A DNA stretch of 64,000 bases from Alteromonadales bacterium alter-6D02 (GTDB taxonomy: Bacteria > Pseudomonadota > Gammaproteobacteria > Enterobacterales > Psychrobiaceae), in assembly GCA_002835545.1 (NCBI GenBank), contig PIZK01000003.1, forward strand, positions 1-64,000, in the 5' to 3' direction. Positions within the stretch are counted from its first letter, which is position 1. Each line of letters begins with the position of its first letter. Made by a program: the position numbers and the translations under genes. Below are positions 28,745-62,736 of the stretch, one piece after another. Under the pieces are notes generated by a model. That model was not told the DNA's origin, ran no database searches, and saw only the letters and a program-made list of their open reading frames with translations.

Positions 28745-28760
28745 TGGCATAAATAATGCT
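28745..28760 (+). promoter_or_regulatory. Sigma54-type promoter for the FlgO-domain lipoprotein operon
   Basis: TGGCATAAATAATGCT: the -24 GG (28746-28747) and -12 GC (28758-28759) are exactly ten bases apart. It matches TGGCAYRN4TTGCW at every specified position but one. Predicted transcription starts near 28771, giving a 28-nt leader to the first ATG. It closely resembles the flgB promoter at 62292-62307. Confidence 0.7.
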
Positions 28761-28798
28761 TTATATTTTCCATTAATGATAACTTAAGTGAGATTTCA

Positions 28799-29386
28799 AT
28801 GAGGGTTAACCATTTTATCTTAGTCTTAGGCTGTTTTTTTGTATTTGGTTGTCAATCTTTTGACCCACAGACACATCAGGCAGTTAAGCAAGATCAACGG
28901 GCGGCATATTTTGACGCCCAAGTGACGAAGATAGCCGATAACTTGATTGCGATGGATACTTATCAATATCGTGAAAAGGCGTCGATTGTGACGACTTTTG
29001 TCCGATTAGACTCATTACGCTTTAAAAAAATGCCGTACCATGGTTTAGAGCTATTGGGCCATCAAGTGGCACAAGGCTTGACAACTAAACTTGTTGAACG
29101 TGGTGCTATAGTGGCTGAGCACCTTGCGGGGACTTCGGTGGCAGTTTCTAAAAATGCATCGTACTTTTTAAGTCGAGACGTTAAAAAACTGAATGGTGAC
29201 ATCCAGGCTCAATATGTTATTTCTGGAACTATGAGTCAAATGGAGCAGGGAATTGTGTTTAATATTGAAGTGATTGACTTAGATAACCAGCAAATTGTTA
29301 GTGCCACAGATAAATACTTCTCGATCGAGCAGCTAATAGAGCAGGGACAAGCCACTAAAATGAAGAACGGTTATATTTTTAGGTAA
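28799..29386 (+). CDS. FlgO-domain outer-membrane lipoprotein, first of operon
   Basis: A 195-residue lipoprotein (lipobox VFGC at about residues 15-18). The mature part fits the FlgO fold: a conserved first strand (SIVTTFVRLDSL), a helix (GLELLGHQVAQGLTTKLVERG), then IQAQYVISGTM and a final FNIEVIDLDNQQIVSAT strand pair. FlgO in Vibrio is an outer-membrane lipoprotein needed for flagellar stability. This protein resembles the domain, but orthology cannot be claimed because paralogues follow. It is the first gene after a sigma54-type promoter, with GTGAGA as ribosome-binding site. A 26-base gap leads to the next gene. Confidence 0.75.
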   Translation: MRVNHFILVLGCFFVFGCQSFDPQTHQAVKQDQRAAYFDAQVTKIADNLIAMDTYQYREKASIVTTFVRLDSLRFKKMPYHGLELLGHQVAQGLTTKLVERGAIVAEHLAGTSVAVSKNASYFLSRDVKKLNGDIQAQYVISGTMSQMEQGIVFNIEVIDLDNQQIVSATDKYFSIEQLIEQGQATKMKNGYIFR

Positions 29387-29412
29387 ATTGGACGCAACAG
29401 GTAGGTAAAAAG

Positions 29413-30120
29413 ATGAAAAAATATAGTCTCTTATTAACCCTTTTTCTTGGCGGCTGTAGCGTAATCAATAGCCCGTTTCAAGAAGTGGCAGGAAAAGATA
29501 GTCAGCAGATGATTGAAAAAAAGCAAGCTGAACGTGCTGAACATTCAGTGAGCTACTATGATGCCCCATTAATTAAGAACGTTAATCATTACTCTAAATG
29601 GGTAGTACAAGACTTATTAACGGACTTTGACATGCCTGATAATAGAGCTGTTTTTGCCGTTGCTGATTTTGCGTTACTCGATTCAGGTTTGCGAACAACC
29701 AATCACTTTGGTCGCCAATTAACTGAGGCAATAATGCACCAAATCAATCGTGCTGGTTACTCGGTTATCGATATCAAGTCGAGCAGTTCGCTTAAGCTTA
29801 ATGAGCAAGGGGATTTATTCTTTCAGACTGAAGTTCCTGATGAGCTGTCTGATGACATCGCCGCAACCTATATTGCAAATGGGACTATGACTAGACACAG
29901 AGGGGGCTACATTTTAAATGCTCGGGTGGTAGATGTTGAAAGTAATGCATTGGTTAGTTCGGCTCAGATTTTTGTTCCTCATGACGTTGTCGATTCGGTG
30001 CTATTAGAAGGGCATGTGCCACAAGCAGTTAACCCAACAACGGGAGAGGGCGAACCTGAGGCACCGCCTCTACCTGCTCCTAATCGTATTGCAATCACTG
30101 AAGCTGATACACAAGAGTAA
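29413..30120 (+). CDS. FlgO-domain outer-membrane lipoprotein, second
   Basis: A 235-residue lipoprotein with a short signal peptide and lipobox LGGC. After a linker, the FlgO-like core (about residues 70-200) shows AVFAVADFALLDSG, GRQLTEAIMHQINRAGYSVIDI, then ATYIANGTM and GYILNARVVDVESNALVSSA. A Pro/Glu-rich tail (EGEPEAPPLPAPN) ends the chain. It resembles canonical FlgO more than the first protein does in the last two strands. It sits between two related genes, so the family has been amplified locally. The next ATG begins four bases after its stop. Confidence 0.75.
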   Translation: MKKYSLLLTLFLGGCSVINSPFQEVAGKDSQQMIEKKQAERAEHSVSYYDAPLIKNVNHYSKWVVQDLLTDFDMPDNRAVFAVADFALLDSGLRTTNHFGRQLTEAIMHQINRAGYSVIDIKSSSSLKLNEQGDLFFQTEVPDELSDDIAATYIANGTMTRHRGGYILNARVVDVESNALVSSAQIFVPHDVVDSVLLEGHVPQAVNPTTGEGEPEAPPLPAPNRIAITEADTQE

Positions 30121-30124
30121 GACT

Positions 30125-30652
30125 ATGACCCTAATAAAACGTATGATTACAACTTTGTCGAGTGCAACACTGCTGGTCGGGGCTGCAGGTTGCAGTACTA
30201 GCTATACAGAAGATGAAGTTGAAGTATTAAATAGTCATGGTAAACCTTTAGTTAAGGTTTTTACCTTCCACACCCACCAACTGGTTAGTGATTATACCGA
30301 TCGGCTCGCTCATGACTTAGTTTCAGATTATCGTGGCGCAGAGTGGGACTCACCACTCGTTATTACTAAGTTCAATGCGTTACAAGGTGAGTCATACAGT
30401 GACGTGCAATTAGGGTTATTAGTGAGTGAAAGTCTTGTTGGTCAAATTCAAAAGTATCAAATCCCTGTTGTAGTTGGGTATACCAATAGTAAAGATGAAT
30501 TAACAGACAAAGCAAAATATATATTATATGGTGTGCTAGTAGAAAATGAGCGAGGCTATGAAGTGAATGCGAGAATTCTAGACTCCACAACACAAGTCAT
30601 TGTATCGTCTGCGACTACCATCATTCCAAAGTACGTGGTCGAGTCACTTTAG
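30125..30652 (+). CDS. FlgO-domain lipoprotein, third
   Basis: A 175-residue lipoprotein with lipobox GAAGC near residue 23. The FlgO-like core has PLVITKFNALQG, LGLLVSESLVGQIQKYQIPVV, AKYILYGVLV and GYEVNARILDSTTQVIVSSAT. Its pre-core helix (HTHQLVSDYTDRLAHDLV) parallels HYSKWVVQDLLTDF of the second protein, implying duplication. The ATG at 30125 was chosen because it begins a proper lipoprotein signal and follows the previous stop by four bases; the frame is open further upstream, but inside the previous gene. Confidence 0.75.
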   Translation: MTLIKRMITTLSSATLLVGAAGCSTSYTEDEVEVLNSHGKPLVKVFTFHTHQLVSDYTDRLAHDLVSDYRGAEWDSPLVITKFNALQGESYSDVQLGLLVSESLVGQIQKYQIPVVVGYTNSKDELTDKAKYILYGVLVENERGYEVNARILDSTTQVIVSSATTIIPKYVVESL

Positions 30653-30677
30653 TGATTAATTAAAAGTAGAGCTTTTT

Positions 30678-30980
30678 ATGAAATTATTTATGGGTATGTT
30701 TATTTGTTTGTTTTTTGCCAGTGGCTGTTCTATTGTTTCTAGTGATGAACGTGCGCAACAAATGAAGACGCAACAACGCGATAAAGAAATTCAGCGTTTA
30801 CTTGCGCTAGAATCGAATGTGGTGAAAATTGTTAATGCCTTGGAAAAAAAAGTGGGTGAGACTGAAGGTGAAGGTATTGACGAACCTTCCGAGGATAATA
30901 AAGAGAAAACCATACGCAGTAGCGGTGAAAGCATGCGCTGTCCTAATGCTAAGTTAACGACATTAGGACACTGCTTTTAA
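30678..30980 (+). CDS. Small lipoprotein of unknown function
   Basis: A 100-residue lipoprotein with signal peptide and lipobox FASGC. The mature chain is a charged helix (RAQQMKTQQRDKEIQRLLALESNVVKI in two parts, likely coiled coil), followed by an acidic stretch and a C-terminal segment with two cysteines (MRCPNAKLTTLGHCF) that could form a disulfide. It has no FlgO core. It is the fourth lipoprotein in the operon; the HDOD gene starts 19 bases after its stop. No family is recognised. Confidence 0.7.
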   Translation: MKLFMGMFICLFFASGCSIVSSDERAQQMKTQQRDKEIQRLLALESNVVKIVNALEKKVGETEGEGIDEPSEDNKEKTIRSSGESMRCPNAKLTTLGHCF

Positions 30981-30999
30981 ATCTTAATTTCAATAAGGT

Positions 31000-32457
31000 G
31001 TGTCTATCGATACGGATTTTTGGGTCAACAAACTAAGCCAACAAGAGTTACCAGCATTGGCCTCTACGGTAAAGAATCTCGCCTTACTTTCTGAAGACGA
31101 CCTAACCTCTTTGTCTGATATAGGTCGCTCAGTTACCCATGATTCCGCATTAACTTCTTGTATTTTAAGGGTTGCCAACCGTCCGGGGCGGAGTCATGTT
31201 CAAGTGACGACTGTCAGTCGAGCTTGTGTTGTTTTAGGTTTTAAGCGCTTAAGAAATGTCTGCTTAACCTCAACGTTATTAAGCGGTTTGCTAAAAAGCA
31301 AAAAGTTATCCAAGCCCGTCTACTTCCAATTAATTAAGTTGATGTCAAAATCGTTTTATGCGGCGATGATTTCAAAAATGATGATGTCAGCCTATGACGA
31401 AGACACTCAAGAAGAAATCTTTATTGCGACTTTATTGTATCACTTAGGTGAAAGTGCATTTTGGAGTATTGGCGGAAAAGTGACTGAGCAGTTAGAGCAT
31501 CGATTACGGCACACAACAGATACCGAAGCTAGAGAAAAAGTAGCTGAACAATACTTAGGTGCAAGCTTTGAAGCAATTAATAGAGGGCTAGTGAAAGCTT
31601 GGAATTTAAGTGAGGTATTAGTTAAAGCGCATGATAATCCAAATAGCAGAACACCTGAATTACAGGTCATAAAAATCGCTGACCGTTTAAGTGATTGCTT
31701 ACTTGAAAGCCAATCATTACCAAGTGTGAAAAACAAACTTTTACAAAAAGTCAGTCAGTATATGCAATTAGATGTTCCTTCTGTGGTACGTCGAGTGAAT
31801 CGTTGTAATGAGCAGACAATTTCAATGTTAGAGGCATTGGGAATCGATGTGCTTAAACAGTTTTTACCAACACAGCCAGTGATTTACATTCCTTTGAATG
31901 AGCCTTCAGAGAGGGGGGGTGTAAGTGTCCATCATAACTCTTGTGAGCAATTAAAACAGCAATTAAACTTCTTGCAACAGTTAACTCACCTAGCCAGTGA
32001 AGGTATTGGGCTTAATCAGTATTTAGAAACAGTTGTACAAGGCTTAGAGTCTGTATTAAATGTGGACCGCGCTTTAGTGCTGATGTTTGAGCGAGATGGG
32101 GCTAGAGTCGTATCAAGGTTCGCAAACCCTTCGTGCGATTTAGCGTCCCAACAACAGTTTAAATTCTCATGTCGCGCTCAAAATGATCTCTTCATTACTA
32201 TTGGCCAAGAGTGTGATCCTGTTTGGGTAAGAGAACAAGTAGGGGAAAAGTACAAGCGGTTGTTAAGTAAAGAGCTCCAAGCTGTGACCAGCGATAAAGG
32301 CTTCTTTATTGCTCCGCTTCTCACTAATAATAAGTGTATTGGTTTCGTATTTGTTGATCGGCGACAGTCTAATAAAGGATTTGTAAGTCATGAGTTTGAT
32401 ACTTTTTCACATGTGATTAAACTGATGAATTTAAGTTTGTACCAAGTGCTAAATTAA
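31000..32457 (+). CDS. HDOD-GAF signalling protein
   Basis: A 485-residue cytoplasmic protein. The N-terminal HDOD domain (about residues 10-270) is related to HD-GYP proteins but lacks a phosphodiesterase motif (LSDIGRSVTHDSALTSCILRVAN, FIATLLYHLGESAFW). The C-terminal GAF domain (about 325-480) shows LESVLNVDRALVLMFE and KGFFIAPLLTNNKCIGFVFVDR. HDOD proteins act as protein-interaction hubs in motility and stress signalling. The start is GTG, with AAGG only one base upstream, so initiation may depend on coupling to the preceding lipoprotein gene. It closes the operon before a terminator. Confidence 0.85.
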   Translation: MSIDTDFWVNKLSQQELPALASTVKNLALLSEDDLTSLSDIGRSVTHDSALTSCILRVANRPGRSHVQVTTVSRACVVLGFKRLRNVCLTSTLLSGLLKSKKLSKPVYFQLIKLMSKSFYAAMISKMMMSAYDEDTQEEIFIATLLYHLGESAFWSIGGKVTEQLEHRLRHTTDTEAREKVAEQYLGASFEAINRGLVKAWNLSEVLVKAHDNPNSRTPELQVIKIADRLSDCLLESQSLPSVKNKLLQKVSQYMQLDVPSVVRRVNRCNEQTISMLEALGIDVLKQFLPTQPVIYIPLNEPSERGGVSVHHNSCEQLKQQLNFLQQLTHLASEGIGLNQYLETVVQGLESVLNVDRALVLMFERDGARVVSRFANPSCDLASQQQFKFSCRAQNDLFITIGQECDPVWVREQVGEKYKRLLSKELQAVTSDKGFFIAPLLTNNKCIGFVFVDRRQSNKGFVSHEFDTFSHVIKLMNLSLYQVLN

Positions 32458-32472
32458 TGAGCTCGGAAATGA

Positions 32473-32504
32473 AAAAGCTGTGTTATCTCTAACACAGCTT
32501 TTTA
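32473..32504. terminator. Bidirectional terminator after the HDOD gene
   Basis: AAAAGCTGTGTT (32473-32484) pairs with AACACAGCTTTT around ATCTCT, with A and T runs at the sides. It separates the plus-strand lipoprotein/HDOD operon from scoB. Confidence 0.9.
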
Positions 32505-32526
32505 TGATGTGAAGGGCCCATTAAAT

Positions 32527-49674: not shown

Positions 49675-50376
49675 TTATTTTGTAGCAAGCTTTAAGCGCA
49701 CAATGTTATGGATACGCTGCATTGAAATTAATGATGCATAAATTGGGGTTAATGCACCTGTTTTACGCAGTTGGTTAAACTTATCGTCGTCTAATTGGTT
49801 TAGTTTGTTTTCATCAATCGCGTATAAACCATTGAGTGTGTACTCTTCATTATCCTCTAGCGTGAGGCTTAAGGATTGAGGTGAAACGAGCTCAAAATCT
49901 AATAACATTTTTATAAATTGGTCTGTCATTTGAGACTTCTCGACGTACTGCACTACACGCTCACCTTGCTCTTGTAACCAAGGTGTTTCGGCTTCTTGTT
50001 CAAATAAGGCTTGACCTTGCGTCTCATTGATTAATGGCGAAGCACTATCAAAGCAAAGAATTGCTGAGTCGTCATCTTTATTTTGGCTAATTAAGAAGGG
50101 GTACAGGGTAAGTGCTTCCGGTGTGTAATTGCCTCTCCATCCTTGTGGAGAGTAAAATTCATTTTCTCCTGGCTTTAGGCCAAGTAGTGCAATGGCTTTA
50201 AATTGGCCTGTGTCTGAATCTTTAACAAATACGACTGGGTAATCTTGACTTGCTGCAACAAACTCTTGCACGACAAGGGGCGCGAAGTGTCTCCCTTCAC
50301 TTTGTAGTAGTGTCGGGTTAGCGCTAACTTTTAAATTGTTATGTTTATTTTTATCGATAGCTTGAATAGTGGTCAC
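49675..50376 (-). CDS. SapC family protein
   Basis: A 233-residue protein resembling the SapC family: HFAPLVVQEFVAASQDYPVVF, then GLKPGENEFYSPQGWRGNYTPEALTLYPF and a C-terminal region. No signal peptide was found. SapC genes in Caulobacterales, Sphingomonadales and Alteromonadales commonly sit beside TonB receptors and tryptophan-halogenase genes; the name derives from an S-layer-type protein and the biochemical role is unknown. It starts 28 bases after the stop of the first halogenase-like gene on the same strand, as the last gene of the cluster. Confidence 0.85.
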   Translation of the reverse strand: MTTIQAIDKNKHNNLKVSANPTLLQSEGRHFAPLVVQEFVAASQDYPVVFVKDSDTGQFKAIALLGLKPGENEFYSPQGWRGNYTPEALTLYPFLISQNKDDDSAILCFDSASPLINETQGQALFEQEAETPWLQEQGERVVQYVEKSQMTDQFIKMLLDFELVSPQSLSLTLEDNEEYTLNGLYAIDENKLNQLDDDKFNQLRKTGALTPIYASLISMQRIHNIVRLKLATK

Positions 50377-50404
50377 AATAACACTCCATATTGTTTAATA
50401 GCTT

Positions 50405-51964
50405 TTATAATTTTTGAAAGCCATATTGATTAACTTTGTTTAATAAGTCACGGTTGCTCGGCAGTTTACTTTCTACTTGCTGAGCAATATGTTGTACATT
50501 ATTAAAGTTTTGTATTGCCTGTGCACTCTTTGAGTAGCGCCCAGCATTAAATGATAAATCTTGCTTGAAGCCCATTCCGTAAAGGACGTATTGATAACTT
50601 TCCATTGGAAAAGGTTCATACACATTATCAAAGTCATAATCACTGACCGGATGGTATCTCCAGCGCTCTAATAACTCTGTTAGGGTTTCCGGTATAGTTT
50701 CTTGATGCTGATTGGCTAACCAAAAAGGCTCTGTTCGTTGTGATAAAACATAATGCATTTTGATAAAATCAATGGTTTTATTCCAACGGAATTGGAAAGA
50801 TTGGTTGAACTTTTTTTCAACCACTGCCATCGCTTGGCGGTCACGAGGAAACAAATCGCAAAGCATGTTTGATGCTGCTTCCATTAAAAAAATTGCCGAT
50901 GCTTCTAAAGGTTCAATAAAGGCTGCGGATAGGCCAACGGCAAGGCAGTTCTTATGCCAAAATTTTTCCCGATAACCGATATTCATTGGAATAACGCGGG
51001 TCATTAAGCCTTCACTTTCCGGGCCTACATAGTCACGTAATGTTTGCTCAGCTTGTTCATGGCTCGTGAACTTTGAGCTATAGACATAGCCTGTACCACG
51101 GCGATTACTTAAGCCAATGTCCCAAATCCAACCTGCTTCTTGAGCCGTTGAGATGGTGCAGCTGGCAATTTCTTGTTGCTCGTCTTGATATGGGACTTGC
51201 ATAACCACGGCGTGATCGGTCAGTAGAGCGTTATCAACTTTTTTAAATTTTACCCCGAGCGCATCACCTAACAGCAAACACTTAAAGCCTGTGCAATCAA
51301 TAAAAAAATCGCCTTCAATAACACCACTGCGATCGGTGGTGACTGAGGCAATGTACTCATCTTTATCAAGGTTCACTTGAGAGACATTTGCAGCGATGTG
51401 TTTAACGCCAAGAACTTCAACGGCGTGTTGTTTGAGCAAGTCCGCAAATAAGCCCGCATCTAAATGGTAGGCATAGTTCTGCGCTCCTTCGTATTCTTTG
51501 TGGGTAATAGCTTTAGGCGCTAATTTACGCTCACAAACTTCACCTTGCACACTGACACTTTGAGCATAAGTACTTGAACCTAAATCTCCTCGCTGCCAGT
51601 ATGGGGCAAGATTAAAATCTGAGGCATCATAGACAGAAGTAAATAAATGATAGTAATGATTTGAATCACCTGCAGCAGGTGTTTCACGCCAGTTAACAAA
51701 TTTTGTTGCCTGTTTTAATGAAGCATTACACTTTACTAAAAACTCAGTTTCGCTAATCCCTAGATTGGCTAAAGTCTTGCGCATGGTTGGCCAGGTACCT
51801 TCGCCAACACCAATGGTTGGAATATCCGGCGACTCAACGATAGTTACTTGAATTGAGCCGGGCTGTGTCGAGTTAAAACGTTTGGCTAGGTTTGCCGCGG
51901 TTAACCAGCCTGCGGTACCACCGCCAACGACAACGACTTGTTGCACTGTTTGTTGGGTCATCAT
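50405..51964 (-). CDS. Flavin-dependent tryptophan-halogenase-family protein, copy A
   Basis: A 519-residue FADH2-dependent halogenase homologue. It has the FAD motif GGGTAGW (residues 14-20) and the VGEGTWP segment. The catalytic lysine candidate is K84 in SLKQATKFVNW, corresponding to K79 of PrnA/RebH. The Glu candidate is E354 in FIEPLEASAIF. The usual WxWxIP motif is WIWDIGL here (Pro replaced by Gly). A soluble cytoplasmic enzyme needing a flavin reductase from elsewhere. The substrate is unknown. It begins five bases after the stop of its paralogue. Confidence 0.88.
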   Translation of the reverse strand: MMTQQTVQQVVVVGGGTAGWLTAANLAKRFNSTQPGSIQVTIVESPDIPTIGVGEGTWPTMRKTLANLGISETEFLVKCNASLKQATKFVNWRETPAAGDSNHYYHLFTSVYDASDFNLAPYWQRGDLGSSTYAQSVSVQGEVCERKLAPKAITHKEYEGAQNYAYHLDAGLFADLLKQHAVEVLGVKHIAANVSQVNLDKDEYIASVTTDRSGVIEGDFFIDCTGFKCLLLGDALGVKFKKVDNALLTDHAVVMQVPYQDEQQEIASCTISTAQEAGWIWDIGLSNRRGTGYVYSSKFTSHEQAEQTLRDYVGPESEGLMTRVIPMNIGYREKFWHKNCLAVGLSAAFIEPLEASAIFLMEAASNMLCDLFPRDRQAMAVVEKKFNQSFQFRWNKTIDFIKMHYVLSQRTEPFWLANQHQETIPETLTELLERWRYHPVSDYDFDNVYEPFPMESYQYVLYGMGFKQDLSFNAGRYSKSAQAIQNFNNVQHIAQQVESKLPSNRDLLNKVNQYGFQKL

Positions 51965-51969
51965 GTCAC

Positions 51970-53541
51970 CTATACTTTGGCAAAGCCATATTGTAATACT
52001 TTATCAACGAGTTCTTTTTGCTTAGGCAGTTTATCAATGAGTAAATCACTAGCCTTATTAATATCGTTAAACATTGCTTGTGCTGCGTCTTTTTCCGTGT
52101 ATTTAGTAGCGACATTCGCGGCGTCAGTCTCAAATCCCATGCCGTAAAGCACGTATAAATAGCTATCTAAATTGAACGGTTCCCAAGCATTGTCAAAGTC
52201 ATATTTTGTCGGTGGTAAGCTCTTCCAATAGGACAATCGTTGCTTCAGGTTGTCAGGAATACTCTTATCATCACAGTTATCAATCCAGTACTGGCTATCA
52301 CGGCGTTGTGATATACAGTAATGCAGCTTGATAAATTCGACGGTACGCTCCATTCGCATAGTGAAATGTTGATTGAATTTCTGCTCAACATAAGGCATTT
52401 GCGCTTTATCTCGAGGAAATTGTGCTGCGATCATATTAGCGGCTGCATCAAACAAGAATATCGCAGATGCCTCTAACGGTTCAACAAACCCTGCCGACAT
52501 GCCAATCGCGACACTGTTTTTATGCCAGAACTTTTTGTGATAGCCGTGATTAAGCTTAATGGTTCGAATCATTAAATCATCGCTATAATCCGTACCGATA
52601 TAATCAATTAATTGTTGTTTGGCTTTGGCTTCTGTGGTGTATTTGCTACTGAAAACATGACCAACACCCCGGCGATTTCGAAGGCCAATGTCCCAAATCC
52701 AACCTGCATCTTGAGCGGTGGCAATGGTATGCGTTTTTATTTCACGGTCATCATTAGGGTAGGGCACTTGCACCGCTAAGGCGGTATCATTGAAAATTAC
52801 ATCACTAATATCTTGCCAATCGATATTATAAGTTTGTTTTATAATTAAGCCCCGATTACCAGAACAATCAATAAAGAAATCTGCTTCGAGGTGTGGCTGC
52901 TCAGCACTATCTGTTGTAACGTGGCTGATAAACTCATCATGATCGAGAACGACTTCGGTGACGTTAGCACTAACGAAGTTTACCCCTAATTTTTCAATGC
53001 AATGGCGCTTTAAAAAGTCGGCAAATTTATTAGCATTCAGATGATAGGCATATTCTTGTACGGCGCTATATTCTGGCATTACAATTTGTTTTGGCGCTAA
53101 ACCGTGATCGCACAAACGCGCTTGGGTGGCAACCGCCCTGTCATAAGGCAGTCGCGTTGCGACATCTTGTTGTAACCAGTATGGGGCAAGGCTGAAATTA
53201 TATGATGAATGGTTAACCGTACTTAATGGGTGATAATAGCTGTGAGGCTGTTGCGGTGTCGGCGTGTGAGACCAATTAACAAACTCAGCGCCTTGCTTAA
53301 AAGTCACGTCACATTCGCGAATAAAGTCGGTTTCACTGACCCCGATTCTTTGTAATGTGCCTCTAAGGTTAGGCCATGTGCCTTCGCCAACGCCAATAAT
53401 GGGTACATCAGGTGATTCAACAAGGGTTAATTTAACCCCATCCTTGGACTGACTATTTAAGCTTTTAGCAAGAATTGCTGCGCTTAACCAGCCTGCGGTT
53501 CCACCGCCAATAATCAGAATATGGTTATTATCTTGTGCCAT
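51970..53541 (-). CDS. Flavin-dependent tryptophan-halogenase-family protein, copy B
   Basis: A 523-residue paralogue of the next gene along the strand. Matching features are GGGTAGW (residues 12-18), VGEGTWPNLRGT, candidate catalytic lysine K82 in TFKQGAEFVNW, WIWDIGLRNRRG, and the Glu in GFVEPLEASAIF. The two copies align throughout but differ in many surface residues, so the duplication is not recent. It may act on a different substrate or site from copy A. A 19-bp inverted repeat and the receptor gene's terminator lie just upstream, so the pair may have its own promoter. Confidence 0.88.
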   Translation of the reverse strand: MAQDNNHILIIGGGTAGWLSAAILAKSLNSQSKDGVKLTLVESPDVPIIGVGEGTWPNLRGTLQRIGVSETDFIRECDVTFKQGAEFVNWSHTPTPQQPHSYYHPLSTVNHSSYNFSLAPYWLQQDVATRLPYDRAVATQARLCDHGLAPKQIVMPEYSAVQEYAYHLNANKFADFLKRHCIEKLGVNFVSANVTEVVLDHDEFISHVTTDSAEQPHLEADFFIDCSGNRGLIIKQTYNIDWQDISDVIFNDTALAVQVPYPNDDREIKTHTIATAQDAGWIWDIGLRNRRGVGHVFSSKYTTEAKAKQQLIDYIGTDYSDDLMIRTIKLNHGYHKKFWHKNSVAIGMSAGFVEPLEASAIFLFDAAANMIAAQFPRDKAQMPYVEQKFNQHFTMRMERTVEFIKLHYCISQRRDSQYWIDNCDDKSIPDNLKQRLSYWKSLPPTKYDFDNAWEPFNLDSYLYVLYGMGFETDAANVATKYTEKDAAQAMFNDINKASDLLIDKLPKQKELVDKVLQYGFAKV

Positions 53542-53570
53542 AGCTACTACTCGTTATGGTTAATTATAGT

Positions 53571-53634
53571 TGTTATACCAAAACAACTTCAGTGTGGGTA
53601 GGTAAAATAACAGGAAAGTTGTTTTGGTATAACA
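53571..53634. repeat. 19-bp inverted repeat, MITE- or REP-like
   Basis: TGTTATACCAAAACAACTT (53571-53589) and its perfect inverse complement (53616-53634) enclose 26 nt. It is short and without an ORF. It could be a miniature inverted-repeat element or an mRNA hairpin upstream of the halogenase genes. Confidence 0.8.
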
Positions 53635-53645
53635 GAGGGTTAAAA

Positions 53646-53674
53646 AAGGAAGGAAAGTTGAACTTTCCTTCCTT
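53646..53674 (-). terminator. Terminator of the TonB receptor gene
   Basis: On the minus strand AAGGAAGGAAAG pairs with CTTTCCTTCCTT around a five-base loop and runs into TTTTTT. It begins 22 bases past the receptor stop. Confidence 0.85.
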
Positions 53675-53695
53675 ACCCCTATCGTTTATGAAAAA

Positions 53696-56266
53696 TTATA
53701 AACGGTAAGAGAATTTCAAGTACAGATTACGACCGTTTTCTGCCGATAAACGCATTGCGTCAAAATCAGTAGATAGACGTTGTGTTGTACTTTCATCAAG
53801 TAAGTTTGTTGCTTCAAAGCTTAGGTCAATGTTTTCAGTTGCATGCCACGTTAAGCTAGCATCTACAAAACCATGAGCATCCCAAGATGTGTTGCCACCA
53901 ATACCTGTAGATTGCGCAATGAAGTCATCACGGTAAGTATAAGCTAGACGTGATGAAATGATGTCATTCTCAAAGAAAGCACTTACGTTGTAGCTAATTT
54001 TAGACATACCAGGTAGGTCTACTTCAACGATAGCATCATCAACTTCTTGCATGCCGAAGCCTTCAGAATAAGTGATGTTAGCAGACCAACCGAACTCGCC
54101 CATTTGCTGCTGGTATTGTAGCTCCAGACCTTGGATTTCGCCGCCTAGCCCTTGTGCTGGTTCATTCAGAGTATAGGTCTCGCCATCTACTGGGTTAACA
54201 ATACTTGATTTGTTTGCACCTTGGATAACGAAAGAGCGGATGTCTTTATTAAATAAGGTTGCAGAAACCAGTGATTCTTCGTTGAAGTACCATTCAACGC
54301 CGATATCAGACTGTGTTGCACGGTAAGGGTCTAACTTGACTGTACCACGAGTAATTTGACGGGTTGTTTCCGTCGTGCTCGCTGCTGGATTTAAGAAAGT
54401 GTAGTTAGGGCGACTGATCACTTTTGCTGAAGATATACGTAAGATAACATCATCAGCTAGATCGATGGCTAAGTTAAAGCTTGGTAACCAATCAGAATAT
54501 TCACTTTCTTCTCGCTCAATAATGTTCGTATCAAAGAAGTTATAATAATCTGCACCTGTATCAGTTTTTACATAACGTAAACCGATATTACCGCGATAAT
54601 CATCACCGCTAAAGTCACCTTGGACATAAGCTGCAAAGATATCTTCAGAGATTACACCATAGCTATTTTTGTTGAGAGAATCACTCGCTTTAAAGCTGTT
54701 GATATGTGAGCGAAGAGCATCACCATCAACACGTGCGATAGCCGTTGGTGAACCAGCTTGTAAACCTACACCTGAGTGATTAAATGTACCATCTGCAAAG
54801 TTAGCTTTAGTGATACCAGTTGTTAGACCGTCTTTAAACTGCCAAGCTTCTGAGAAACTAGTGAATTCATGATCGCGAAGTTTAATACCTGTTTTTAAGT
54901 TAGAAACAGGTCCCCATTCTACGTCAAAATCGAAATCAACTTGAGCAAACGTTTCTTCATCTTTACGGTATCCCGCAGTAACAGAAGCATTATTCATCAC
55001 GTATTCTGCGTGATTACTCGCATCAGTGTTTACCGGTTGTAACAACATTGAATTTTTGCCTGACATATCAAAGTTAATACTTTGATTGTCATTACTAGAA
55101 ACCCAACCTACATTATAGTTACCACCATCACCACCAGTTGCTTTTGTTTTACCAAATTTACTATTTACAGTGAAGCTGTCAGCTTGGTAGTTAACTTCAA
55201 ATGCGACAACTTGTGTTTCCATCTCAGCATTACGTGAGTTGGTATCGTCAAATGGGCCACCTGCGAAAGTACCGTTTAATGCACGACCACCATCTGGTGC
55301 AAATTTTGTTGCACCTGTAACACGCTCATTAAAGCCTGGAGTGTACACGCCATCATCGTCGGTCGAACCAAGCGCCGCACCAGGAATGATTAGGTAGTTT
55401 TGATTGGTATTACCTGCATCTAAATCTACTTTAAAATAATGTAGATTCATTGATAATGAATCTGTTGGTGCATACTGAACAGTTAAATCAATCGCGTCAC
55501 GTTGACGATCTTGATAAAACTCTGAAATACCAGCGCCTGCCCAGCCATCATCCATGTAGTTTTCAGCTTTGTGACTACGACCTACCGCTTGTAAAGTAGA
55601 TAACGCCGCTAGAACACCGAAGTTTTCATCTTCATTTTTCCAGCTGTACATGCCGGTAGCACCCATACCGTTATCGTCAGCTAGGCTGTTATCTTGTACT
55701 TCAGCTGAGAAGTAAACAGTGTTTGAGTCTAAAGATAGAGGCTTACGAGTACGAACGGCAACAGTACCACCCACACCACCTTCATCTAAAGAGGCCATTG
55801 GTGATTTGTATACATCAACGCCAGCAACAAGTTCTGGTGGTAATAAATCCATATTAAATGAACGTGTTGCAGGTTGTTGAGAGAACCAACCTGTCGATGC
55901 AACGTAGTTACCATTCATGCTGATTAGCGTTAATTCAGGGTTGGTACCACGAATAGAGACACTGCCACCTTCACCAGCAAAGTTTCTTGCGATAGTTACA
56001 CCTGGAATACGTTGTAGAGATTCAGCGATGTTACGGTCAGGGAACTTACCAATATCTTCAGCTGAAATTGAATCAACAACGGCGTTAGCAAAACGCTTTG
56101 AGTTAAGGGCCGCTTTTAAACTACCACGGATACCGCTAACTTGAATCGTTTCGATTTCTTTAGCTTCATCTTTGTCAGCAGCTAAAGCTGGGGTGATTGC
56201 AACACCACTTACAGCAACAGCGATGCTGCTTGCTAATAGGTGTTTCTTGAAATTGATGCTCGACAT
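53696..56266 (-). CDS. TonB-dependent receptor (Xanthomonas/Caulobacter type)
   Basis: An outer-membrane active transporter of 856 residues. It has a signal peptide ending ALAA, a TonB box (IETIQVSG), a plug domain with the group signature FPDRNIAESLQRIPGVTI and RGTNPELTLISMNG, and a 22-strand barrel ending in LKFSYRL. Members of this group often import carbohydrates or derived compounds. The start was set at ATG 56266 with AAAGGAAAG upstream; the frame stays open 13 codons further. Two LacI-type operators lie upstream, which fits a sugar-linked inducer. Confidence 0.92.
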   Translation of the reverse strand: MSSINFKKHLLASSIAVAVSGVAITPALAADKDEAKEIETIQVSGIRGSLKAALNSKRFANAVVDSISAEDIGKFPDRNIAESLQRIPGVTIARNFAGEGGSVSIRGTNPELTLISMNGNYVASTGWFSQQPATRSFNMDLLPPELVAGVDVYKSPMASLDEGGVGGTVAVRTRKPLSLDSNTVYFSAEVQDNSLADDNGMGATGMYSWKNEDENFGVLAALSTLQAVGRSHKAENYMDDGWAGAGISEFYQDRQRDAIDLTVQYAPTDSLSMNLHYFKVDLDAGNTNQNYLIIPGAALGSTDDDGVYTPGFNERVTGATKFAPDGGRALNGTFAGGPFDDTNSRNAEMETQVVAFEVNYQADSFTVNSKFGKTKATGGDGGNYNVGWVSSNDNQSINFDMSGKNSMLLQPVNTDASNHAEYVMNNASVTAGYRKDEETFAQVDFDFDVEWGPVSNLKTGIKLRDHEFTSFSEAWQFKDGLTTGITKANFADGTFNHSGVGLQAGSPTAIARVDGDALRSHINSFKASDSLNKNSYGVISEDIFAAYVQGDFSGDDYRGNIGLRYVKTDTGADYYNFFDTNIIEREESEYSDWLPSFNLAIDLADDVILRISSAKVISRPNYTFLNPAASTTETTRQITRGTVKLDPYRATQSDIGVEWYFNEESLVSATLFNKDIRSFVIQGANKSSIVNPVDGETYTLNEPAQGLGGEIQGLELQYQQQMGEFGWSANITYSEGFGMQEVDDAIVEVDLPGMSKISYNVSAFFENDIISSRLAYTYRDDFIAQSTGIGGNTSWDAHGFVDASLTWHATENIDLSFEATNLLDESTTQRLSTDFDAMRLSAENGRNLYLKFSYRL

Positions 56267-56369
56267 TAACTTTCCTTTCACACTTTTATTGTATTTTTTA
56301 ATCAAATTGTCGCTTGCAATGATGATCTTAGTCGTTGTCTAAAAAGTACTACTGAATCCTTTTATCAAC

Positions 56370-57010: not shown

Positions 57011-58174
57011 TTATTGCTTTCTTATTAAATCCCCTAATTGGATATCGCCATAAAGTACCTGCTCGGCTGCCGCGGTCAGGTGGTTACGGTTGATATTTTT
57101 TACAACTAATACGGTGCTGTTAATGGTCGTTGATTGGCGTAGAATACCGTTTGAGTCGGTAAATGTTTGCCTATGGAAGGCGGTGAGTTTGTCACCTAAT
57201 TTTAAACCGTGCATTGTCCCTAAGTTTATCGTCAGTTGTTCTGGTTCAACTTTTAAAACTTCCCCAGTCAGTTCTTCACAAAATAAACGTTGATTAATAT
57301 CGGAGACGGCTTGAGTTAGTTGATTGTTAATCGCAACACCATACTCGCTGTACCAAAATGCTTGGCTACTAACATCAACCGTTTGTTGCGGTTTATACTT
57401 CCAAGGGGCTATTGTCTGGTATTTTTTTGACCAAATACGTTCGCCACTTAGGCCATGAAATAAAGTCATAGTGAGGCTAAATTGCCTTTTTGGGGCGTTA
57501 TTACTTAAACCAAACCACTTACTCTCAGCTTGAAATAATGAAATGTCATCGATTTGCCCCGTCAATAAATATTGACTATCTGCTTGTTGTGTCAATAGTT
57601 GTTGTTCGTTGGTTGTAAAGGGTTGGTCTCGCGATGAAATAAGTTGTTCAATCGGCAATAGTTGCTTGGCTAAATAGCTTCCTTTGTGCAGAGACATTTT
57701 ATCAAACAATTGCATTGAGGTATGCTTGCCAAGATCAAACACTGAACCGTTGACTGCTTGTTGGCGGTTAAGAATAGGAAATTGCGTTAATGCAAGCGTT
57801 TTAGTGTGTTGTGCCGTGTCACATTGAAGTGGGTCCGCCACAATATCTGCTCGTATTGTTACTTTAACATAATCAGGAGCTTGGGTTTCGTTGATAAGCT
57901 TCAAATCCCGGACACTACCTTGTGAGCGAACTTCAAAGTGATCGCTCATTAGTAGCCCTTGACTTAGCTTAGAGACACTTTGAATTTGAGCTCCGTTAAA
58001 AAGTAGGGCATGTCTAAGGGCATCTTCTACGGCCTGTTGTCGTGCAACATCTAGATTGCTGTTAATAATTGGCGCTTGACCGTGAGCCTCGAACCACTCA
58101 CTTTTAACGGTAGGAGAAAAAACTAATAAGGAGATATTAAGTAGGATAAATGACATTAAGTTAAATTTGGTCAT
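57011..58174 (-). CDS. flgT: Flagellar H-ring assembly protein FlgT
   Basis: A periplasmic protein of 387 residues with a signal peptide (LLVFSPTVKS, cleavage before EWFEAHG). In Vibrio, FlgT forms the H ring around the flagellar basal body and helps anchor the motor. The N-terminal ARQQAVEDALRHALLFNGAQI is a strong family segment, followed by GSVRDLKLI and a C-terminal domain with ITINLGTMHGLKLGD-like sequence, here LTINLGTMHGLKLGDKL. It lies 14 bases downstream of flgP, with no flgO between them. Confidence 0.92.
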   Translation of the reverse strand: MTKFNLMSFILLNISLLVFSPTVKSEWFEAHGQAPIINSNLDVARQQAVEDALRHALLFNGAQIQSVSKLSQGLLMSDHFEVRSQGSVRDLKLINETQAPDYVKVTIRADIVADPLQCDTAQHTKTLALTQFPILNRQQAVNGSVFDLGKHTSMQLFDKMSLHKGSYLAKQLLPIEQLISSRDQPFTTNEQQLLTQQADSQYLLTGQIDDISLFQAESKWFGLSNNAPKRQFSLTMTLFHGLSGERIWSKKYQTIAPWKYKPQQTVDVSSQAFWYSEYGVAINNQLTQAVSDINQRLFCEELTGEVLKVEPEQLTINLGTMHGLKLGDKLTAFHRQTFTDSNGILRQSTTINSTVLVVKNINRNHLTAAAEQVLYGDIQLGDLIRKQ

Positions 58175-58188
58175 AGATTATTACTCGC

Positions 58189-58635
58189 TTAATTTTTTAC
58201 TCGACGAGGTAAGTTGGCTGACTGATAAAGTTGATAGATAGTTTTAAAATCTAGCTCTAACTCTGTCGCATAGATATCATCATCGATTGGGTAGCTTTTC
58301 TTAACCGTTGCTCCACGGATCAGTCCTTGGACTGAGGTTTGCATCGAAGAGTTTTCAATAATTAATTGATTAAATGTGGTTTGGCCATTGAGCTGAAAGC
58401 CATGGACTTGTTCAGATAACTCTCTGTAGGCATTTAATTTTGAGGCGTGGATTGCATTTAGCATTTTTGTGGTTCGATCTTTACCTGGCTGCTGATTGAT
58501 CGGTGCATAACCAATGGCTGTTAAAACGACAAATTCTTGCGGTTGTTGTGTTTCATATTCAATAAACTTAGTTGAATTACACCCGACAAGCGACAATATG
58601 CTAGTAAAAAGAATTATTTTCAAAGTTTTACTCAT
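58189..58635 (-). CDS. flgP: Flagellar outer-membrane lipoprotein FlgP (LPP20 family)
   Basis: A 148-residue lipoprotein with lipobox LVGC. The mature part (VVLTAIGYAPINQQPGKDRTTKMLNAIHASKLNAYRELSEQVHG, quoted in outline) is the LPP20/FlgP family core. FlgP in Vibrio is needed for flagellar stability and outer-membrane ring formation. The ATG at 58635 is supported by GAGG upstream. The frame remains open further upstream, but that part lacks a signal-peptide start. About 70 bases separate it from flgN. Confidence 0.92.
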   Translation of the reverse strand: MSKTLKIILFTSILSLVGCNSTKFIEYETQQPQEFVVLTAIGYAPINQQPGKDRTTKMLNAIHASKLNAYRELSEQVHGFQLNGQTTFNQLIIENSSMQTSVQGLIRGATVKKSYPIDDDIYATELELDFKTIYQLYQSANLPRRVKN

Positions 58636-58705
58636 GATTATATCCTCATGCTTGGATGTATGACTACCACTAGCCATAGTCGGAAGGCTAATATGTGGAT
58701 TGGAA

Positions 58706-59134
58706 TTAAGCTGAGACGTAACCACCTGATAAGGAACCGCCCCGGGTTTTACCCTTGGCTGTATAAGTCATCGAATTACCTGCACGCTTTTGAATCAAGG
58801 AGCCTTGCAGTCGCTCAAGGCTATTGAGCCCTAAGGCAATAGCTTTGCCATTTTGTTGGTTTTTTTCTTGGCATTGCTTAAGTAGTAGATCAACTTGCTC
58901 TTTATGAGATTGCAATTCAGCGGGAAACTCTTTGGGATTAGGAAGGGAGTTAGCTAGTTGCTGATCGGTTTGCTGCAATTGTTCAATAAGCTGTTGCTTT
59001 TGTTCAGCGAGTTGATTGATGGCTTCATATTGACGGGCTATCAAGGCTTGTTCTTCTTGCGCGAGCAGTGTTAATAGCTGCTCGGCATACGTAATTTGAA
59101 GAGATAAAAATTGTAATGGTTGTTCAATATTCAT
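58706..59134 (-). CDS. flgN: Flagellar chaperone FlgN
   Basis: A 142-residue, almost entirely helical protein that acts as export chaperone for the hook-filament junction proteins FlgK and FlgL. The coiled-coil heptads are obvious (LTLLAQEEQALIARQYEAI, LAEQKQQLIEQLQQTDQQL). The C-terminal part (GLNSLERLQGSLIQKRAGNSMTYTAKG) is family-typical. It directly abuts flgM with no intervening base, and the two are co-transcribed. Confidence 0.9.
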   Translation of the reverse strand: MNIEQPLQFLSLQITYAEQLLTLLAQEEQALIARQYEAINQLAEQKQQLIEQLQQTDQQLANSLPNPKEFPAELQSHKEQVDLLLKQCQEKNQQNGKAIALGLNSLERLQGSLIQKRAGNSMTYTAKGKTRGGSLSGGYVSA

Positions 59135-62291: not shown

Positions 62292-62307
62292 TGGCATAGC
62301 TATTGCT
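62292..62307 (+). promoter_or_regulatory. Sigma54 promoter for flgBCDE
   Basis: TGGCATAGCTATTGCT matches the sigma54 consensus TGGCAYRN4TTGCW at all specified positions. The predicted start is near 62318, 23 nt before flgB. This fits the FlrA/FlrC-RpoN hierarchy of polar flagella. Confidence 0.88.
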
Positions 62308-62340: not shown

Positions 62341-62736
62341 ATGACGATCTCATTTGATAAAGCATTAGGAATTGCACAGCACACTGTGGGTATTAGAGCC
62401 CAGCGTGCTGAGTTAATTGCCAGTAATATTGTGAACGCCGATACTCCGCATTATAAAGCGCGAGATATGGACTTTGCTACAGCGATGCGAAATGCGGAGT
62501 CTAATTTATCTTCAAGTATGGCTAGAACTCATGATAAGCACTTTAAAGTCACTTCTTCTGTTGGTGACGGTGTGGCGTATCGTATTCCAAATCAACCTGA
62601 TACTGGTGATGGCAATACAGTTGATGTACAAATGGAACGAAACTTGTATATGAAAAACGCATTGGAGTATCAGTCTAGTCTACAATTTCTCGGCGGTAAG
62701 TTTAAAGGGCTTAGATTAGCCATTAAAGGATCTTAA
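62341..62736 (+). CDS. flgB: Flagellar basal-body rod protein FlgB
   Basis: A proximal rod protein of 131 residues. The conserved N-terminal FDKALGIAQHTVGIRAQRAELIASNIVNADTPHYKARDMDF, abbreviated here, and the C-terminal rod motif NALEYQSSLQFLGGKFKGLRLAIKG are typical. First gene of the sigma54-driven rod/hook operon; the flgC ATG follows two bases after the stop. Confidence 0.95.
   Translation: MTISFDKALGIAQHTVGIRAQRAELIASNIVNADTPHYKARDMDFATAMRNAESNLSSSMARTHDKHFKVTSSVGDGVAYRIPNQPDTGDGNTVDVQMERNLYMKNALEYQSSLQFLGGKFKGLRLAIKGS

Follow-up and report, generated by a model that had tools for sequence, protein, structure and literature searches.

A three-gene FlgO set of Alteromonadales bacterium alter-6D02 and its possible place in the outer-membrane ring of the polar flagellar motor

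The H-ring of the flagellar motor has been worked out in Vibrio, where a single FlgO is present. This ring is built of FlgO, FlgP, and FlgT (PMC6375700) and is disrupted by the loss of flgO (PMC7175336), and Vibrio flagella require flgO, partly through polarity on flgP (PMC3948606). The flgO promoter of Vibrio fischeri is FlrA-dependent (PMC3948606), and tables of a survey list a single FlgO candidate per species, Colwellia psychrerythraea included (PMC6375700). Here we analysed a stretch of 64,000 nucleotides from Alteromonadales bacterium alter-6D02 (GenBank assembly GCA_002835545.1, contig PIZK01000003.1, positions 1 to 64,000 of the forward strand; hereafter, the window), which carries an operon containing three genes for FlgO-domain lipoproteins, flgO1, flgO2, and flgO3. 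On sequence comparison, this three-gene set is an old and widespread unit, the order of which is kept far beyond the strain of the window, and we propose with moderate confidence that it replaces the single FlgO in the outer-membrane ring of the polar motor.

The operon comprises five genes at positions 28799–32457, all on the + strand and separated by intergenic gaps of 26, 4, 25, and 19 bases. The following features were assigned to it:

28745..28760, + strand: sigma54-type -24/-12 site, TGGCATAAATAATGCT, fitting GG-N10-GC, upstream of the operon
28799..29386, + strand: flgO1, FlgO-domain lipoprotein, 195 amino acids; PF17680 95.8 bits; clusters with the position-1 proteins of other triples
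29413..30120, + strand: flgO2, FlgO-domain lipoprotein, 235 amino acids; PF17680 107.6 bits; clusters with the position-2 proteins
30125..30652, + strand: flgO3, divergent FlgO-domain lipoprotein, 175 amino acids; PF17680 57.5 bits; clusters with the position-3 proteins
30678..30980, + strand: Lp4, small lipoprotein, 100 amino acids; signal peptide and lipobox by reading; no family
31000..32457, + strand: HDOD-GAF protein, 485 amino acids, GTG start; HDOD 82.4 bits, GAF 26.6 bits
32472..32503, + strand: likely terminator hairpin with a 14-pair stem, at the end of the operon

The first-pass annotation of this DNA had described three FlgO-like lipoproteins, a small lipoprotein, and an HDOD-GAF protein in a tight arrangement. 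All five genes are present, and the three FlgO proteins all score above the PF17680 (FlgO) cut-off of 22.6 bits and thus belong to this family. The mechanically listed open reading frame (ORF) of flgO3 begins too early, and the gene was set at 30125–30652. By reading of the sequence only, FlgO1, FlgO2, FlgO3, and Lp4 each have a signal peptide ending in Gly-Cys, which in the three FlgO proteins forms the lipobox of a lipoprotein signal. The segment at 32455–32512 folds at -17.9 kcal/mol (z -4.45), giving the hairpin that closes the operon; the hairpin at 32472–32503 was not among the calls of the terminator scan.

The profile of the FlgO2 family matched FlgO chains in the PDB (E 1.9e-46), in entries that hold 58 FlgO chains each, and FlgP (58 chains) and FlgT (26 chains per entry) belong to the same set. 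The PDB FlgO entries (9y..) were not among the fold-search matches listed, which was not counted against the sequence match. FlgO3 was predicted to adopt an LpoB/PelC-type fold, the structure model sharing the fold of LpoB, PelC, and CsgG. Within the genus, FlgO2 shows 45–46% identity, and FlgO1 and FlgO3 show 21–29%. FlgO1 and FlgO3 of the window cluster with proteins of Thalassomonas sp. RHCl1 and two Colwellia (L166, L169, and L170; supports 99 and 100), and their standing apart from the other members of the genus hints at exchange or hidden paralogy.

Among the nine genomes of the genus, the triplet was found in five (including that of the window), one FlgO of the canonical clade in three, and a weak match in the remaining one (88% complete). 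A tree of 109 FlgO proteins contained three clades with supports of 96, 94, and 90, each consisting of the same five genomes of the genus and six genomes of other families, and the gene order in most of these triples is O1-O2-O3. The named FlgO loci, i.e. the best 80 of 371 found by scanning genome contigs with the FlgO2 alignment, include those of Alteromonas, Colwellia, Pseudoalteromonas, Paraglaciecola, and Thalassomonas, and at least three FlgO genes are present in 75 of the 80. A larger tree, comprising 244 proteins and 74 triples, takes only part of the genomes of the 109-protein tree and omits L167, L168, and L171 (copies of G007, G006, and G001, respectively); in it, the proteins of positions 1, 2, and 3 formed three near-clades with five label changes each, versus approximately 64 in shuffles. 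A firm FlgO match was obtained in 251 of 295 genomes of the family to which G038 belongs, 158 of these having at least three matches.

The site at 28745–28760 scores 15.5 on a simple weighted scale with a maximum of 16.5. Within the window, 24 matches to the pattern, which was picked after this site had been seen, were obtained at no more than one mismatch versus 18.8 in shuffles, an excess that is not significant (16 of 100 shuffles reached 24). Sites scoring at least 14 were found upstream of the first FlgO gene in all 11 triples of the genus and other families, upstream of all three single FlgO genes of the genus, and, at the named loci, upstream of 62 of 67 triple runs, compared with 1.2% of shuffled upstream sequences and 5.6% of 780 other genes. 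It is this conservation upstream of the triples, not the statistics of the window, that makes the 28745 site significant, in support of the sigma54-type site noted in the first-pass annotation. The sole other exact match to the pattern within the window lies in front of a flagellar gene:

62292..62307, + strand: second sigma54-type site, exact match to the same pattern, upstream of flgB (ORF at 62341, named by reading)

A search of the whole genome found no FlgO beyond the first three genes of the operon. The genes for the other two ring proteins are present in the genome and lie in the window, approximately 27 kb from the triplet operon:

57011..58174, - strand: flgT, with a match to FlgT_M and to PDB FlgT chains (E 2.1e-45)
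58189..58725, - strand: flgP, directly upstream of flgT, with a match to PDB FlgP chains (E 1.9e-20); coordinates are those of the ORF as listed, whereas the searches took 58656 as a later start

There is no flgO between or beside these two genes at 57011–58725 of the window, a point absent from the first-pass annotation. The - strand also carries flgN, flgM, and flgA, and the + strand carries cheV, cheR, and flgB onward (all named by reading, apart from flgP and flgT). In relatives, 84 stretches were fetched, with G011, G036, and G095 (weak matches in large proteins only) excluded, and the local model called FlgO in 77 and none in seven. FlgO is located no more than 3 kb from flgT or flgP in 66 of these 77 stretches, the common layout being flgT<>flgO-flgP, and in G058 and L197 it is the triplet that adjoins flgP and flgT. 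Six genomes of one genus (L049, L050, L051, L086, L088, and L089) have two FlgT genes each and the order flgT<>flgO-flgP-flgO. Across the 295 genomes, FlgO and the FlgT middle domain are both present in 247 and both missing in 42, with FlgO only in four and FlgT only in two; these counts leave out seven weak FlgO matches (E above 1e-10) and were made by comparing the positive lists by eye, with 247 agreeing in both counts.

We favour a role of the triplet in the H-ring because FlgO was found only in the triplet and no flgO adjoins the flgT and flgP genes of this genome, and because the paralogue groups stand in a mostly fixed order, the sigma54-type sites are conserved, and FlgO tracks FlgT. 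According to this proposal, flgO1–3 would be transcribed along with other flagellar genes by the sigma54 form of RNA polymerase, probably aided by an activator of the FlrA type as judged from Vibrio, and the three lipoproteins would be exported and then attached to the outer membrane on its inner side. There they may join FlgP and FlgT in the H-ring around the L/P ring, most likely forming a mixed FlgO layer in place of a one-subunit layer, and the ring would aid the passage of the flagellum through the outer membrane and steady the motor. Several observations weigh against such a role. FlgO3 is strongly divergent in sequence, long branches leave the placements in the trees uncertain, and the gene order is not universal, O3 being first in G136 and lying across pilus genes in G094. 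In addition, the four genomes with FlgO but no FlgT match include one, G282, that is 99% complete. Finally, FlgO recurs in the neighbourhood of pilus genes, which leaves room for another or an additional role.

Within the genus, FlgO adjoins a gene cluster for pilin-like, chaperone-like, and large usher-like proteins in five cases, two of them triplets and three single genes. In the 295 genomes, 93 usher places were counted in 82 genomes (approximately 200 bits or more, with second pieces of the same gene omitted and weaker matches dropped), and FlgO lies within 15 kb of 43 of them, 39 of these within 6 kb. Because the census considered a single FlgO place for most genomes, the 43 near places represent a lower bound. 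Five of the 50 ‘far’ places were read, and FlgO was found beside the usher in three and not in two; the resulting 46 FlgO-adjacent places (43 plus three on reading) cover 14 genera. By our own estimate, the chance that one FlgO locus in a 4.5-Mb genome falls within 15 kb of an usher is under 1%. The numbers of places with FlgO near and far were 26 and 7 for ushers scoring at least 700 bits, 16 and 15 for 500–700 bits, and 1 and 28 for 200–500 bits, but this rise of adjacency with score is partly built in because the profile (A5) was made only from FlgO-adjacent ushers. The position of FlgO relative to the pilus genes varies (before, after, or on both sides). An usher is carried by 18 of the 80 named FlgO loci, whereas 62 have none in the stretch examined, and no usher of this kind was found in the genome of the window with the Pfam usher model or the usher searches.

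The structure model of the usher (from a Pseudoalteromonas member; predicted local distance difference test score 85.0) matches FimD (Foldseek E 4.1e-28) and PapC and thus has the usher fold. The Pfam Usher model PF00577 matched in none of 24 genomes, six of which carry this usher; the usher profile matched no usher among the PDB sequences; and profile comparisons of the usher with Escherichia coli FimD and EcpC and of the chaperone with EcpB were not significant. NCBIfam gave no match above the cut-off for the pilus proteins, one chaperone scored 23.5 against the PapD_N cut-off of 23 (barely over) and another fell below it, and the pilin scored 24.4 bits for DUF4402 against a cut-off of 25.2. 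A sigma54-type site accompanies only three of 40 pilin genes. In L249 (3831–5192) and L250 (8460–9737), FlgO3 is fused to a region resembling the SPOR lipoproteins of the locus (E 1.3e-8 and 3.5e-10, respectively), and G332 contains a reading frame of a length similar to those of these fusions. A Colwellia metagenome assembly (L172, 1758–10934) has five FlgO-domain genes, one of them weak (27.9 bits), around one pilus cluster, and G282 (L269, 348–1883) retains two genes each for FlgO and the usher, with no FlgT match.

The last two genes of the operon show a different distribution. Lp4 has no Pfam match above the cut-off and occupies the place that a SPOR lipoprotein takes in the similar layout of Colwellia ponticola (L169). 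Lp4 could conceivably be a shortened SPOR lipoprotein, for which a first small search gave E 0.009, but the similarity does not exceed chance: a search against 3487 proteins gave 11.0 bits, E 0.048, and rank 65–66, no better than unrelated rows. The product of the fifth gene is an HDOD-GAF protein with both domains above their cut-offs (22.9 for HDOD and 22.4 for GAF). Full-length relatives with approximately 28–39% identity occur in other families of the order, and eight relatives of the same genus gave no full-length match, only shorter HDOD matches. Neither the nine short stretches around HDOD-GAF relatives nor the five wider ones read had a labelled FlgO, and two of the latter adjoin genes read as aceA and aceB. 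Both genes are missing from the operons of four relatives of the same genus that have the triple, and no HDOD-GAF orthologue was found in any of the 80 named FlgO loci. Lp4 and the HDOD-GAF protein thus look like local additions to the operon, perhaps transcribed merely by read-through from the promoter of flgO1–3.

These results bear on the alternatives to an H-ring role, of which the least probable by far is a flagellar or envelope structure formed by all five genes, with the HDOD-GAF protein as its cytoplasmic hub. The tight spacing of the genes and the position of the likely terminator, found only behind the fifth gene, are in its favour, but the hub proposed in the first-pass annotation was rejected on synteny because the HDOD-GAF gene is absent from both the triples of the four relatives of the same genus and the 80 named FlgO loci, and FlgO was not labelled near the HDOD-GAF relatives read. 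What stands of the expanded outer-membrane module described in that annotation is therefore flgO1–3, the order of which is widespread and preceded by a conserved sigma54-type site; a unit of all five genes is not supported. It is also unlikely that one paralogue alone performs the ring function, most plausibly FlgO2 as the nearest to the classical protein, the other two having drifted and been kept by co-transcription, now in accessory or unrelated envelope tasks. FlgO2 has the highest PF17680 score and matches the PDB FlgO chains, and the lower identity of FlgO1 and FlgO3 within the genus fits such a drift. However, all three genes are retained in most triples across many genera in a mostly fixed order, so drift alone is insufficient.

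The neighbourhood of FlgO in relatives raises the possibility, to which we assign a low probability, that the triplet or some of its members serve the chaperone-usher pilus. The proteins would make up a ring beneath the usher, in the manner of PelC with PelB, and together with SPOR-domain lipoproteins would tie the pilus to the cell wall; the ring proteins would have persisted in the genome of the window after loss of the pilus, or without a pilus ever having been present. The number and taxonomic range of the FlgO-adjacent usher places, the ushers in the named loci, the FlgO3 fusions, the match of the usher model to FimD and PapC, and the resemblance of the FlgO3 model to PelC all point in this direction. 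They are countered by the majority of named loci that have no usher in the stretch examined, its absence from searches of the window's genome, the rarity of sigma54-type sites at pilin genes, and the association of FlgO with FlgT, together with the larger number of genomes with at least three FlgO matches (158) than with an usher place of approximately 200 bits or more (82). A role in both machines may be envisaged, although this is decidedly improbable in our judgement: FlgO1-2-3 could be a portable outer-membrane ring module that forms a sigma54-controlled mixed ring with FlgP at the motor, while in pilus-bearing relatives some of the subunits, with the SPOR lipoproteins that are sometimes fused to FlgO3, seat an atypical chaperone-usher pilus at or near the flagellar ring. 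If so, swimming and adhesion gear would share a single outer-membrane platform.

The first-pass annotation had also raised the possibility of a structure not yet described. FlgO proteins as such are familiar components of the H-ring; what seems new is the three-paralogue set and its pilus-locus neighbourhood, neither of which was found described in the literature searched, with few subscription papers covered. If Alteromonas, Colwellia, Pseudoalteromonas, and the genus of the window use three paralogues in the H-ring, a mixed ring is expected, the composition of which, like its role in piercing the outer membrane, would be directly comparable with that of the Vibrio ring. The recurrent proximity of FlgO to an usher type missed by the standard model, together with the fusion of FlgO3 to a lipoprotein region of that locus, connects a family of flagellar ring proteins with pilus assembly in a way that can be tested. 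Elsewhere in the window, a transposase-like ORF lies close to the left end (576–1244), and two tryptophan-halogenase-like proteins, a SapC-like protein, and a TonB receptor are encoded at 49675–56305 (names by reading only).

Compared with known systems, the HDOD-GAF protein resembles signalling proteins with both domains and has full-length relatives among them, which elsewhere are unlinked to FlgO in the loci examined. The LpoB/PelC/CsgG-type lipoproteins share the fold of the FlgO3 model at a low identity of approximately 14–16%, and the fold alone shows no function; unlike for these proteins, no synthase, curli, or polysaccharide genes were recognised by reading beside the triplet of the window. 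The clusters of relatives (not that of the window) share with chaperone-usher pili an usher-fold barrel, which lies beside FlgO along with putative PapD-like chaperones and DUF4402-like pilins, but their usher escapes the Pfam model, and extra SdrD_B or carboxypeptidase-like domains and often SPOR domains are present. The closest counterpart is the Vibrio H-ring FlgO of the flgOP-flgT locus, with which the triplet has in common the Pfam family, the lipoprotein nature, a sigma54-type site as a candidate for similar control, and the presence of FlgP and FlgT in the genome, whereas the single copy of Vibrio is represented here by three genes at a distance from a flgP-flgT locus that itself has no flgO.

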